A stretch of DNA of 64,000 bases from a virus: positions 248,001 through 312,000 of IMG/VR virus record IMGVR_UViG_3300027985_000843. One strand, given 5' to 3'. A program made the translations under genes and the position numbers. Under the pieces are notes generated by a model. That model searched no databases. It was not told the origin of the DNA and saw only the letters and a program-made list of their open reading frames with translations. This document shows positions 18,749-23,952 of this stretch, piece by piece (within the stretch, counting starts at the first letter, position 1; every line of letters starts with the position of its first letter).

Positions 18749-19327
18749 TCAGAGGCGGCTCGCCCCGTTCTTGTGGGCGTAGAAGCCTACCTGTCGACCA
18801 TCCTCGATGAACTGCTGTACCGAGAAGGCCATGTAGCTCGATACGAGGGCAATGAACGGTAGGAACTCGCCACCCTCACAGGTAGCAGCCCCAGCCACGT
18901 CCTCGTCATCGATCTCGAAGTTGGCGTCCCACACGACCTGGCCGAACGTACCGTCGGGCGCGAGGGCACCATGCAGGCAGGGGGTGCCCGCCTTGCGGAC
19001 GAACTTCTGAACGGTTCGGCGAGCCTCCCCATTGTCCAAGCAGTCGAGCACAAGGTCAGCTCCACCAAGAAGCGCCTCGACGTTGTCTGAGACCATCTTG
19101 TGGGGATTCGTCTTGATCTTGAGCCCGAACAGGAACTGGAGACTCTGTGCGAGACCTAGGACCTTGTTCTTGCCCACCGACGGTTTGCCGTGGAACTGGG
19201 ACTTGACGTTCTTCTGCTCCACCCGGTCGAAGTCGATCAGGGTGAAGTCGGCGTCAAAGTTGCGAGCGAACTGCATGAAGTGGGATCCAAGGGCCCCGAC
19301 TCCTACCACAACGATCTTCATCTTCAT
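18749..19327 (-). CDS. E1-like (ThiF/MoeB) adenylating enzyme
   Basis: 192 aa. Activates a ubiquitin-like C-terminus by adenylation. Rossmann nucleotide loop VVVGVGALGSH at residues 5-15, DFDRVEQKN, Arg/Lys-rich KNKVLG, DCLDN and GALAPDG match the E1 core. A candidate active Cys is in AATCEGG (~150). The zinc-binding CxxC pairs and C-terminal extensions of MoeB are missing, giving a minimal E1 as in phage and prokaryotic Ubl cassettes. Its ATG overlaps the endonuclease stop; last gene of the operon starting with the TROVE protein. Confidence 0.85.
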   Translation of the reverse strand: MKMKIVVVGVGALGSHFMQFARNFDADFTLIDFDRVEQKNVKSQFHGKPSVGKNKVLGLAQSLQFLFGLKIKTNPHKMVSDNVEALLGGADLVLDCLDNGEARRTVQKFVRKAGTPCLHGALAPDGTFGQVVWDANFEIDDEDVAGAATCEGGEFLPFIALVSSYMAFSVQQFIEDGRQVGFYAHKNGASRL

Positions 19328-20268
19328 CCTTCCAAGTCCTTGTAAGACCTGCGACTGATAATTCTACCCATAGCAGAATCAGTGATTCCAAACTTTCGGG
19401 CCAGAGAGGCTTTTGTCCAACCTTCAGCAAAAAGACCACGTGCTTCCAATACTTGGTCGTCGGACAGCTTCCTGGATGGCTTCCAATTTGGCTCCCGAAC
19501 AAACCTTAACTTGTATAAACAACAAGCCGGGAGATGGTTCTCTACCAGGGACTTGAGCTTCACGGCCTCAGCTTTTGTGTTCACAGCTATCTTGAACTGT
19601 CCTGGTCGAACAGAGCTTTCCCGAACTACAGTACGTACACCCAGCGAGCCTAGCTTCTCGGAGAGTCGAGAGACACAACCCTCAGAAAAACCATCTGTGC
19701 AGAAAAATAACTGACCTTGTCGATCATAGGTACCGTCGCCTGCAAACCACTGAGCAACAGACAAGGGTGTCAAGACAAGGTCAGAGGGAACTATCTTCAC
19801 ACCCCTGGGGTACCACCTAGCCCGCTGAGTTTTGAACTCACTGTAACAAGGTGTATACAGCAAACGACCGCCCCGCCCATGAATGACACGATCACCCAAG
19901 CACTTGGACCGAGGTGGGACGGGAATGATGGCGGATTCACAACCGTGTTCTACAAGCAGCACAGTCAAAGAGTCCAACCAACCCAACCGAACACGGCCCT
20001 GCTCCAATCGAAGACTCCCCTTAGGGTCCAAGGAGCCATCCCCCAAAAGGACGCCTTCTAAGACCTGCGACACAAGGTCCCAGTCGGCTCGGTGCTCTCG
20101 ATCACCTAGATACCTTGCATTCTGTTCCTTAGAGGAACGTACGAGAACACCCGTCTTCTTCAAACGATTGAGAACATTCCATGTAGAGCAACCAAGTCGG
20201 CGAGCGATAGAGGACGCGCTCTCGCCCGACAGATAGGCTTCGGTCAAAGCTTGGTGATCCATGATCAA
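19324..20268 (-). CDS. LAGLIDADG-type homing endonuclease with HTH domains
   Basis: 314 aa. N-terminal helix-turn-helix (SASSIARRLGCSTWNVLNRL), two LAGLIDADG-like helices (VLEGVLLGDGSL and VAQWFAGDGTYD) each with a catalytic-type Asp, and a C-terminal helix-turn-helix (KASLARKFGITDSAMGRI). Free-standing: it is inserted between the ubiquitin-like gene and the E1 gene and overlaps the E1 start by 4 nt, so it is translationally coupled to the operon. Probably a selfish element that entered without breaking expression. Confidence 0.85.
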   Translation of the reverse strand: MIMDHQALTEAYLSGESASSIARRLGCSTWNVLNRLKKTGVLVRSSKEQNARYLGDREHRADWDLVSQVLEGVLLGDGSLDPKGSLRLEQGRVRLGWLDSLTVLLVEHGCESAIIPVPPRSKCLGDRVIHGRGGRLLYTPCYSEFKTQRARWYPRGVKIVPSDLVLTPLSVAQWFAGDGTYDRQGQLFFCTDGFSEGCVSRLSEKLGSLGVRTVVRESSVRPGQFKIAVNTKAEAVKLKSLVENHLPACCLYKLRFVREPNWKPSRKLSDDQVLEARGLFAEGWTKASLARKFGITDSAMGRIISRRSYKDLEG

Positions 20269-20293
20269 AGCCTACCAAACGGTTTATTCGGTG

Positions 20294-22069: not shown

Positions 22070-22077
22070 GTATCACC

Positions 22078-23952
22078 TCACGCCGCAATGGCCCATGCAG
22101 GCTTGCGGAGGATCTCCGTGTTGAGGATCTGTTCCACGAGGCTGACACGCGGGGCGGCCTTGGGAACTCCACCTGTCACCTGGCCCACCGGAGTGGCAGC
22201 GATGAGTGCGCGGACGGTACGCGGGATTGCGTATGGGTCCTTGAACACCTCTTCGTCGACACGGAAGCACGGAATGTTAAGTGCGGCTGCCGCTTCCTGT
22301 ACCACGTGATAGCCGCTGTTGCCCAGGCGAAGCAATCCGAAGGCCGTCGGGTTGATGCCCGATGTCTGAACCGCGTTGACCAGCTGAGTAGGGCCACCGA
22401 AGTCCTCTTCGTCTCCGATGAAGATGAAGATCGCGTCAGTGCCGTCAGCAGGCTTGATCTTGCTCAGGGCCTTGACGCCGGCCGCGTACGAAGTACCGCC
22501 TCCGGCACGGATGCCGAAGAAGGCTTGACGCACACCCGCAGACGATGCCTTCTTGATTGCGATCTCGCGACCGACGGTGTTGAAGATCGCGACGTGGATC
22601 TTGTCGAGCGGAAAGCTGCCGACGAACTTCTCGACATACTGCTTGGCGGCCTCGATGGCAGGGCCCATCGAGCTGGAGACGTCGACGAAGAAGTAAGGCT
22701 CGATACCCTTGACCTCTTCCTCGACAGCCTTCTGAGCTGCCGCGTCAGCCGCGTTTTCGAGCTGTTCCTTCAGTTCCTTCGACTTGACGTTGCGGGCCAG
22801 ATTCGCAGCACGCTGGTCCTCCGCCTGCTTCGTCGCCGTCTCCCACCGCTGCCGGATGTCCTGGACCTTGAGCAGGCCCAACTCTTCGAGCGTTGGAGTG
22901 AGGATGATCAAGTCCTTGTCGGACACGCTCTTGGCCTCGATGGCCGCCGCCATGATGGCACGGGTCAGACCCATGTTCTTCGGGAGGCGCCCCGTGAGGA
23001 GCTTGAAGCTCGGCTTGCCTTGGATGATCTTCTCGCACACTTGCTCTTCGGTCAGGCCCTCCCAAGAGTCTTCCTTGGAGAAGTCCTCGCCGATGCCGAT
23101 GGTCCGACGACCATCGTCAGCTTGCTTCTGCGTCCAGCCCAGGATCTCGTAGAACTTCGAGGTCGACGGCTTGTAGCCCGAGCACTTGGCGAGCTTGATG
23201 ACCGTCTTCTTGAAGCCGGCCTTGGCGAGCCCCTCCAGCAAGGGAAGATTGTCCTCCCGATGCTTGAGCCACTGCCGAACCACCTTCGACCAACGACCGA
23301 GGAACGGCTTGCGAGCGGAACGCCCGAACCCGAGTTCGCGGTTGATCTTCGCAATCCCGTCCAAGCACAGAACGTCGTGGATGCGCATGAGGAGCTTGGC
23401 GTCCAGATGCCGACGGTCCTTGCGGATGTGCAGGCACATGGCCTCACCAACCTCGCGGAAGTCCTCATCGAGGAACGTCTCGTCCTCGTCGCGGATGGGG
23501 TCTCCCTTACGGCTCTGGACCAGCATGAAGGCCGCGAGGATGACCTTCAGGTCCTTGTGCTCCTGAGGGTAGGCGAACGACGCCCAGCGGGCCGCGAATT
23601 CGTTGTCCAAGGCCCACACGTCAGCCACCTGCTGGTACATCCACGTGGCGACCTCCGGGAAGATGCCAGGCTTCTGGTATCGTCCGAGCTTCCGGCGGTC
23701 GTCGCTCCGAACCGTGCCATCCTCCCAGAGCTGACCGACCTTCTGGTTGGCCTTGCCCTTGGTCACGAGGTAGACGACCTTTTTGCCGTCCTCCACCTTG
23801 TGCGTGCAATACTGCCACTTCACACCCACCACCGAACTCGCGTCGGTGGACACGAACCCAGGACGGTTGTGGACCGCGTGGCCGGAGTAGTTGATGAGGG
23901 TGTTGATGACCTTCTCAGCAGGTCCCAGTGTCTCGTTGGCTACCATTTTCAT
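22078..23952 (-). CDS. Ro60-like TROVE / vWA RNA-binding protein
   Basis: 624 aa. N-terminal ~350 residues are all-helical TROVE-type repeats (SGYKPSTSKFYEILG is typical); C-terminal ~220 form a von Willebrand A domain with MIDAS motif DVSSSMG and a later Asp-containing IGDEED. Ro proteins form rings that bind Y RNAs and misfolded RNAs; bacterial Rsr and mycobacteriophage homologues are known. First gene of the Ubl operon, with an AGGA site before its ATG. In a region full of odd tRNA-like RNAs, a Ro protein could chaperone or survey them (inference). Confidence 0.8.
   Translation of the reverse strand: MKMVANETLGPAEKVINTLINYSGHAVHNRPGFVSTDASSVVGVKWQYCTHKVEDGKKVVYLVTKGKANQKVGQLWEDGTVRSDDRRKLGRYQKPGIFPEVATWMYQQVADVWALDNEFAARWASFAYPQEHKDLKVILAAFMLVQSRKGDPIRDEDETFLDEDFREVGEAMCLHIRKDRRHLDAKLLMRIHDVLCLDGIAKINRELGFGRSARKPFLGRWSKVVRQWLKHREDNLPLLEGLAKAGFKKTVIKLAKCSGYKPSTSKFYEILGWTQKQADDGRRTIGIGEDFSKEDSWEGLTEEQVCEKIIQGKPSFKLLTGRLPKNMGLTRAIMAAAIEAKSVSDKDLIILTPTLEELGLLKVQDIRQRWETATKQAEDQRAANLARNVKSKELKEQLENAADAAAQKAVEEEVKGIEPYFFVDVSSSMGPAIEAAKQYVEKFVGSFPLDKIHVAIFNTVGREIAIKKASSAGVRQAFFGIRAGGGTSYAAGVKALSKIKPADGTDAIFIFIGDEEDFGGPTQLVNAVQTSGINPTAFGLLRLGNSGYHVVQEAAAALNIPCFRVDEEVFKDPYAIPRTVRALIAATPVGQVTGGVPKAAPRVSLVEQILNTEILRKPAWAIAA

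Follow-up and report, generated by a model that had tools for sequence, protein, structure and literature searches.

A window of 64,000 nucleotides, corresponding to positions 248001–312000 of the 371,739-bp IMG/VR virus record IMGVR_UViG_3300027985_000843, was analyzed around a gene cluster at 18749–23952 that places a protein resembling the Ro60/Rsr (TROVE) family next to the components of a ubiquitin-like pathway. Seven open reading frames (ORFs), overlapping or nearly so, occupy the minus strand of this interval. Read along that strand, they encode a TROVE-like protein of 624 aa (22078..23952), a 313-aa protein termed P313 (21128..22069), a 67-aa product, a JAB/JAMM metalloprotease of 122 aa (20570..20938), a predicted ubiquitin-like protein (UBL) of 79 aa (20294..20533), a LAGLIDADG homing endonuclease and a minimal E1/ThiF-type adenylyltransferase of 192 aa (18749..19327). 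An earlier note on this DNA, made from the sequence alone, had described a coupled minus-strand operon with an additional homing endonuclease. Coordinates, strand and coupling were confirmed; the 67-aa ORF and the endonuclease fell outside the set of genes that is conserved in relatives.

Conserved linkage in relatives had been set beforehand as a test of the proposed operon. IMG/VR was scanned with two-sequence alignments, separately for TROVE, UBL and E1, and a larger UBL scan added further loci. A search of viral contigs with a single TROVE sequence gave no match, whereas the two-sequence alignment succeeded. Whichever of the three genes served as bait, the remaining cassette genes were usually recovered. 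The linkage proved nearly absolute: about 62 distinct phage loci carry the genes for TROVE-like protein, P313, JAB, UBL and E1 in a fixed order and on one strand, and the order TROVE–P313–JAB–UBL–E1 on a single strand was found in 89 of 113 loci, many of them overlapping. When ORFs within 6 kb were clustered across the 71 loci with distinct E1, the five cassette families were each present in 62–71 loci. All other clusters were limited to at most 29 of the 71 loci; for the most part they were ORFs that run through tRNA genes, or homing endonucleases. Since only five families reach 62–71 loci, the linkage is selective and does not reflect plain synteny. The 67-aa ORF (20935..21138, minus strand) formed no conserved cluster in the 71 loci and had no convincing match in Pfam, PHROGs or NCBIfam. 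The endonuclease gene (19324..20268, minus strand; LAGLIDADG_2, 1.6e-15), located between UBL and E1, is sporadic in relatives and was regarded as a passenger. Both were rejected as core parts, as they are not in the conserved set.

The virus Rctr197k (KX853510, locus L002) shares the five genes and their order with the window, although further genes stand between them. In its record the TROVE gene is annotated merely as misc_feature, and the P313 gene has no annotation. Two distant cassettes, L003 (from a 595-kb phage) and L055, have kept TROVE, P313, JAB and E1. We also noticed that E1, P313 and TROVE genes are split or duplicated in the loci L020, L024/L054 and L078, possibly by insertion of inteins or homing endonucleases.

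The cassette is not confined to phages. In myxobacterial genomes the UBL profile matched contigs 3.2 and 1.2 Mb long, and within one myxobacterial family 15 of 98 genomes had a match. Thirteen chromosomal regions contain full or partial cassettes, most of them a full compact operon, and no further neighbour is conserved across them. The chromosomal E1 proteins form one clade (support 0.976). Four of the thirteen cassettes lie in or beside tRNA clusters; the others do not. In one of these genomes (G110) the cluster tRNAs look accessory, because they mostly score below the rest of the genome's 58 tRNAs. On two myxobacterial chromosomes (L118 and L143) an HNH-like gene is located among the tRNAs, and this gene and tRNAs are shared between both clusters, so that some chromosomal copies may be phage-derived. 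Cassette contigs L059-L066 had been assigned to metagenome-assembled genomes of Myxococcota, Polyangia, Sorangium and others, which hints at myxobacterial hosts for some of the cassette phages, although binning errors are possible.

In the chromosomal operons an element of 145–165 nt recurs upstream of TROVE, sometimes twice. It folds into a long Ro-type closing stem that encloses a T-arm, a stem, a D-arm and an anticodon-like arm, and thus has the layout of a permuted tRNA. Among eight chromosomal copies, compensatory changes were found in 24 of 38 pairs. The only Rfam matches of the chromosomal element were tRNA and YrlA, both under the cut-off. A covariance model was built from these eight copies, with the phage copies kept out of its construction, and it detected 41 strong phage copies in 28 sources. 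In these, 36 of 38 pairs were compensated, among them the full set of ten outer-stem pairs. In the phage alignment, which was fitted to the model and is hence biased toward structure, 94% of cells were paired, compared to 35–47% with a slid partner and 64% in shuffles (0/500 shuffles). A start 43–1909 nt downstream of E1 was seen for 33 of 44 Y RNA copies; all share the strand of the cassette. Partial matches to the model (model positions 49-122, T-arm to D-arm) were rejected, as they arise at tandem tRNA junctions.

Two full-length Y RNA genes flank the operon in the window, both on the minus strand. The first (17921..18091; 65.0 bits, E 1.2e-13) is located 658 nt downstream of E1. The second (25650..25803; 67.7 bits, E 3e-14) lies between tRNA-Gly and tRNA-Leu, 1.7 kb upstream of TROVE. 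Against Rfam YrlA (RF02553, cut-off 69 bits) they score 20.5 bits and 23.4 bits (E 0.006), respectively; the elements are YrlA-like and not RF02553 members as curated. A possible degenerate third Y RNA-like element at 18401..18560 (minus strand, 31.7 bits) is uncertain and overlaps an ARAGORN prediction of tRNA-Asp(atc).

The entire cassette is embedded in a tRNA array (371..28034), in which ARAGORN predicts 45 genes, all on the minus strand. Indeed, 43 of the 44 tRNA matches of the phage fall within positions 247,968–276,034 of the record (28 of 372 kb), again all on the minus strand and with the cassette inside. In most of the related phage loci tRNAs share the strand of the cassette, with as many as 43 within 20 kb; some loci have none. 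One ARAGORN tRNA in the window (953-1042, minus strand) is of undetermined anticodon. Neither the flanking Y RNA genes nor the link to the tRNA array had been seen in the earlier note. Its proposal of a joint Ro–Ubl system is well supported by the gene linkage and is strengthened by the Y RNA genes.

The TROVE-like protein consists of an alpha-helical N-terminal part and a VWA domain with an intact metal ion-dependent adhesion site (MIDAS). VWA_2 is its sole Pfam domain (1.8e-6) and was detected in 35 of 35 members; the MIDAS residues (DxSxS, T, D) are invariant in the family. The TROVE assignment of the earlier note is supported by remote similarity of profiles. The family profile matched PDB chains described as 'TROVE domain-containing protein' (9kop/9l5y, E 7.8e-4), and the match spans the junction of the helical part and the VWA domain. 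A comparison with six myxobacterial TROVE proteins by hhalign gave 85%, E 6e-6, over 283 co-linear columns, to which the VWA domain contributes much. Although the similarity is remote by sequence, the large protein is likely a Ro protein, because Y RNA genes adjoin its gene.

For the 79-aa protein, Pfam, PHROGs and NCBIfam gave no convincing family match. Its AlphaFold model, computed from an alignment including 33 relatives, shows a β-β-α-β-β order with a predicted local distance difference test score (pLDDT) of 93.1, and a beta-grasp fold is predicted with confidence. Among the VIA-align matches listed, most (Z 4–5) were beta-grasp domains of the ubiquitin-like or Ras-binding kind, a weak signal but one that points to a single fold class. 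The suggestion of a beta-grasp candidate ending in glycine was borne out in relatives: the core-terminal Gly is invariant in 67 distinct UBLs, two of which have atypical motifs that were assigned by eye, and the motif RPKTPFG is present in 50 of the 67. Residues following the Gly number 0 in 14, 1 in 25, 2 in 7 and 3–61 in 19 of these proteins, and their sequences are unrelated. In the window the protein ends in RPKTPFG and corresponds to the mature form, with no tail to cut, while the UBL of Rctr197k carries a 61-aa tail past PFG. Since the Gly is invariant but lies at differing distances from the C-terminus, UBL is probably made as a precursor which is cut after the Gly, and the JAB protein encoded next door would be the natural enzyme for this cleavage.

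The JAB protein matched Prok-JAB with E 0.0017, under the curated cut-off. The JAMM motif, reported as intact in the earlier note, reads HSHPx6SFTD in the window, and 64 of 65 distinct relatives preserve the zinc motif HxHx(7-8)SxxD. The protein is a candidate Ubl precursor peptidase or deconjugase. E1 was identified by Pfam ThiF (3e-22), and its nearest solved structure is MoeB (2.4e-9), followed by the ThiF-fold proteins 9egc/9egb. The glycine loop and DxxDN are retained in the E1 family. A Cys at the position of the ThiF/MoeB cysteine (TCExG) is present in 61 of 70 members; in the window it lies in TCEGGEFLPF and is likely the catalytic residue.

P313 is part of every full cassette and belongs to no known family; searches of Pfam, PHROGs and NCBIfam gave nothing convincing. 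Its AlphaFold model (pLDDT 88) comprises a beta-rich N-terminal half with tandem oligonucleotide/oligosaccharide-binding (OB)-like folds, a long helix and a C-terminal domain of α-β-β-β-α order. The N-terminal half resembles the Mpa interdomain (Z 6.2), with RNA-binding OB proteins lower, and Foldseek searches of PDB and BFVD gave no significant match. The Cys of a G-x-C-L motif (Cys268) is invariant in 69 of 69 distinct homologues. To our eye its surroundings hint at an E2 active site. Searches of PDB, Pfam and PHROGs with the profile of the C-terminal domain gave no E2 match, and a similarity to cholera toxin B (PDB/Pfam, E 0.03 and up) was rejected as noise. A Prok-E2_B search of 188 myxobacterial genomes was likewise without a match.

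Starting from what was computed here, namely the gene unit, the predicted UBL fold, the Gly-and-tail pattern, the Y RNA and the tRNA linkage, we infer a mechanism with its individual biochemical steps, target conjugation and benefit. We consider it somewhat better than an even chance that these genes specify a Ro ribonucleoprotein of the phage, equipped with a ubiquitin-like pathway of its own and acting on tRNA-shaped RNA. The TROVE-like protein would bind Y RNAs from the same tRNA region by their closing stem, and the permuted-tRNA module of the Y RNA would mimic or present tRNA. JAB would cleave the UBL precursor after the invariant Gly; E1, as a one-step enzyme, would then adenylate this Gly and hand UBL on via its conserved Cys. 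The covalent acceptor of UBL would be either a component of the Ro particle, with TROVE and P313 as the likeliest candidates, or some other protein that is bound along with the RNA. P313, which has OB folds of the RNA-binding type and an invariant C-terminal Cys, would serve as an adaptor and possibly as a transfer enzyme. JAB may also remove the tag, which would make the attachment reversible. The likely benefit would be quality control of the large phage tRNA set, or its protection against damage or host anticodon nucleases.

Several results weigh against this reading. No RtcB was found in the phage record, which may be a fragment, and no recognizable UBL was found in the distant L003 and L055 cassettes. 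A Pfam TROVE (PF05731) match is missing from the window protein and its relatives, and the helical part without VWA gave an hhalign E of 0.075, compared to 0.067 for one control. The UBL fold matches are low (VIA-align Z <5; Foldseek against PDB, E 0.46 or worse). The E1 loop had been called intact in the earlier note. This holds for the glycine loop, and DxxDN and the likely catalytic Cys are kept as well, but 62 of 70 relatives have a small residue in place of the conserved NxxRQ Arg. Several chromosomal cassettes have no tRNAs nearby. The earlier note had named no recognizable E2, and none was recognized by family searches of the conserved cassette genes. Its idea that the 313-aa protein might fill this role gained no support from profile comparison: compared with the E2 domains of three E2-E1 fusion proteins of bacterial Ubl systems, the C-terminal domain reached an hhalign probability of 0.1, and controls were as good. 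The invariant GxCL Cys with its E2-like local motif remains as a hint.

A more specific version of the Ro ribonucleoprotein reading is possible, though less likely than not: UBL may be passed to Ro itself, or even to the Y RNA or to a tRNA bound in the Ro ring, and thereby mark damaged tRNAs or stalled tRNA complexes. If true, ubiquitin-like RNA quality control would be common to giant phages and myxobacteria and would form a category of its own.

The position of the cassette within tRNA arrays would also fit a sulfur carrier pathway, in which E1 and UBL form a thiocarboxylate for thiolation of the array tRNAs, TROVE and P313 present these tRNAs, and JAB trims UBL. Urm1-Uba4 and TtuB-TtuC produce such a thiocarboxylate, and trimming of sulfur carriers by JAB proteins is established for Mec+ and QbsD. 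The similarity of E1 to ThiF/MoeB and the lack of a detected E2 agree with this scheme. However, no thiolase of the TtuA/Ncs6/MnmA type and no rhodanese is among the five conserved genes, UBL has a single C-terminal Gly instead of GG, and several chromosomal copies lack tRNAs in their vicinity. We regard a sulfur carrier as unlikely.

Counter-defence by tagging of host proteins appears quite unlikely. Here, the Ubl would inactivate host nucleases or defence proteins, with Ro–Y RNA as a decoy or targeting scaffold. The cassette is mostly phage-borne and adjoins tRNA arrays, which are thought to counter host tRNA cleavage (PMC7824862); for Salmonella YrlA, a role as competitive inhibitor of an anticodon nuclease has been proposed (PMC7790460). 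The myxobacterial copies, however, are stand-alone operons without other conserved neighbours.

NLE1 and Rsa4 use UBL domains to dock on midasin. A comparable non-covalent docking of UBL on the VWA/MIDAS of the TROVE-like protein, with E1 and JAB merely loading or recycling UBL, would be in line with the invariant TROVE MIDAS and with the best VIA-align match of UBL, the NLE1 UBL in complex with the MDN1 MIDAS (Z 4.8, a score shared by other Ubls; the Z difference among these matches is not meaningful). Such docking would need neither E1 nor an invariant C-terminal Gly and is very unlikely. That unrelated genes came together merely because tRNA arrays are insertion hot spots is hardly credible: other genes and homing endonucleases are indeed inserted in the same arrays, but exactly five families keep order and strand despite large divergence and intervening insertions, and the same set is found in chromosomal copies without tRNAs.

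With the exception of P313 the parts of the cassette are of known kinds; their combination appears to be new. Archaeal SAMP/UbaA/HvJAMM1 and Thermus TtuB/TtuC likewise comprise a Ubl, a single ThiF-type E1 and a JAMM protease without a recognizable E2. The SAMP and TtuB Ubls end in GG and are not known to be linked to Ro, Y RNA or P313. Bil, CBASS Cap2-Cap3 and the 6A-6E Ubl systems share E1, JAB and Ubl with the phage cassette, but carry E2 domains, and CBASS also a CD-NTase; neither was found by family search in the cassette. PRTRC (ThiF, JAB, Prok-Ub, ParB) is an E1-JAB-Ub set on mobile elements as well. Its E1 differs, as the phage E1 scores 38 against the PRTRC_ThiF cut-off of 145 bits, and no ParB is among the conserved genes.

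Bacterial Ro proteins and Y RNAs have been assigned a role in few species, and substrates are known for a minority of prokaryotic Ubl cassettes. The unit described here offers both sides, a Ubl pathway with a Ro protein and Y RNA as its constant companions. It points to a coupling of protein tagging and RNA quality control beyond eukaryotes, and makes such a coupling testable in bacteria and phages. With five proteins and one RNA, it is also a compact six-part system for reconstitution.

On the RNA side, known Ro–Y RNA operons act in the repair or decay of RNA in connection with tRNA damage (PMC7790460). Salmonella rsr-yrlBA-rtcBA (PMC7790460) and the Deinococcus Rsr-Y RNA-PNPase system have a Ro60 orthologue, a tRNA-mimicking Y RNA alongside and a link to tRNA damage as in the phage cassette. 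These systems contain RtcB/RtcA or PNPase and are not known to include a Ubl, E1 or JAB, whereas the phage cassette has the Ubl module and no RtcB was found. TROVE proteins on phages and mobile elements are represented by the jumbo-phage ROT/TROVE proteins, linked to RNA repair in PMC7824862, and by the Borg-element TROVE (PMC11208441); in the accessible portions of both papers they are linked to no Ubl system. No description of the Ro–Ubl unit was found in the open literature, including the available parts of PMC7790460 and PMC7824862, with subscription literature outside the scope.

Two further ORFs with zinc-peptidase-like motifs were noticed in the window. One of them (25890-26804, minus strand) lies between tRNA genes and has an HELGH motif. 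The other (29828-30463, plus strand) has an HELTH motif, and relatives of it are located near the cassette in three further loci (L018, L030 and L090).

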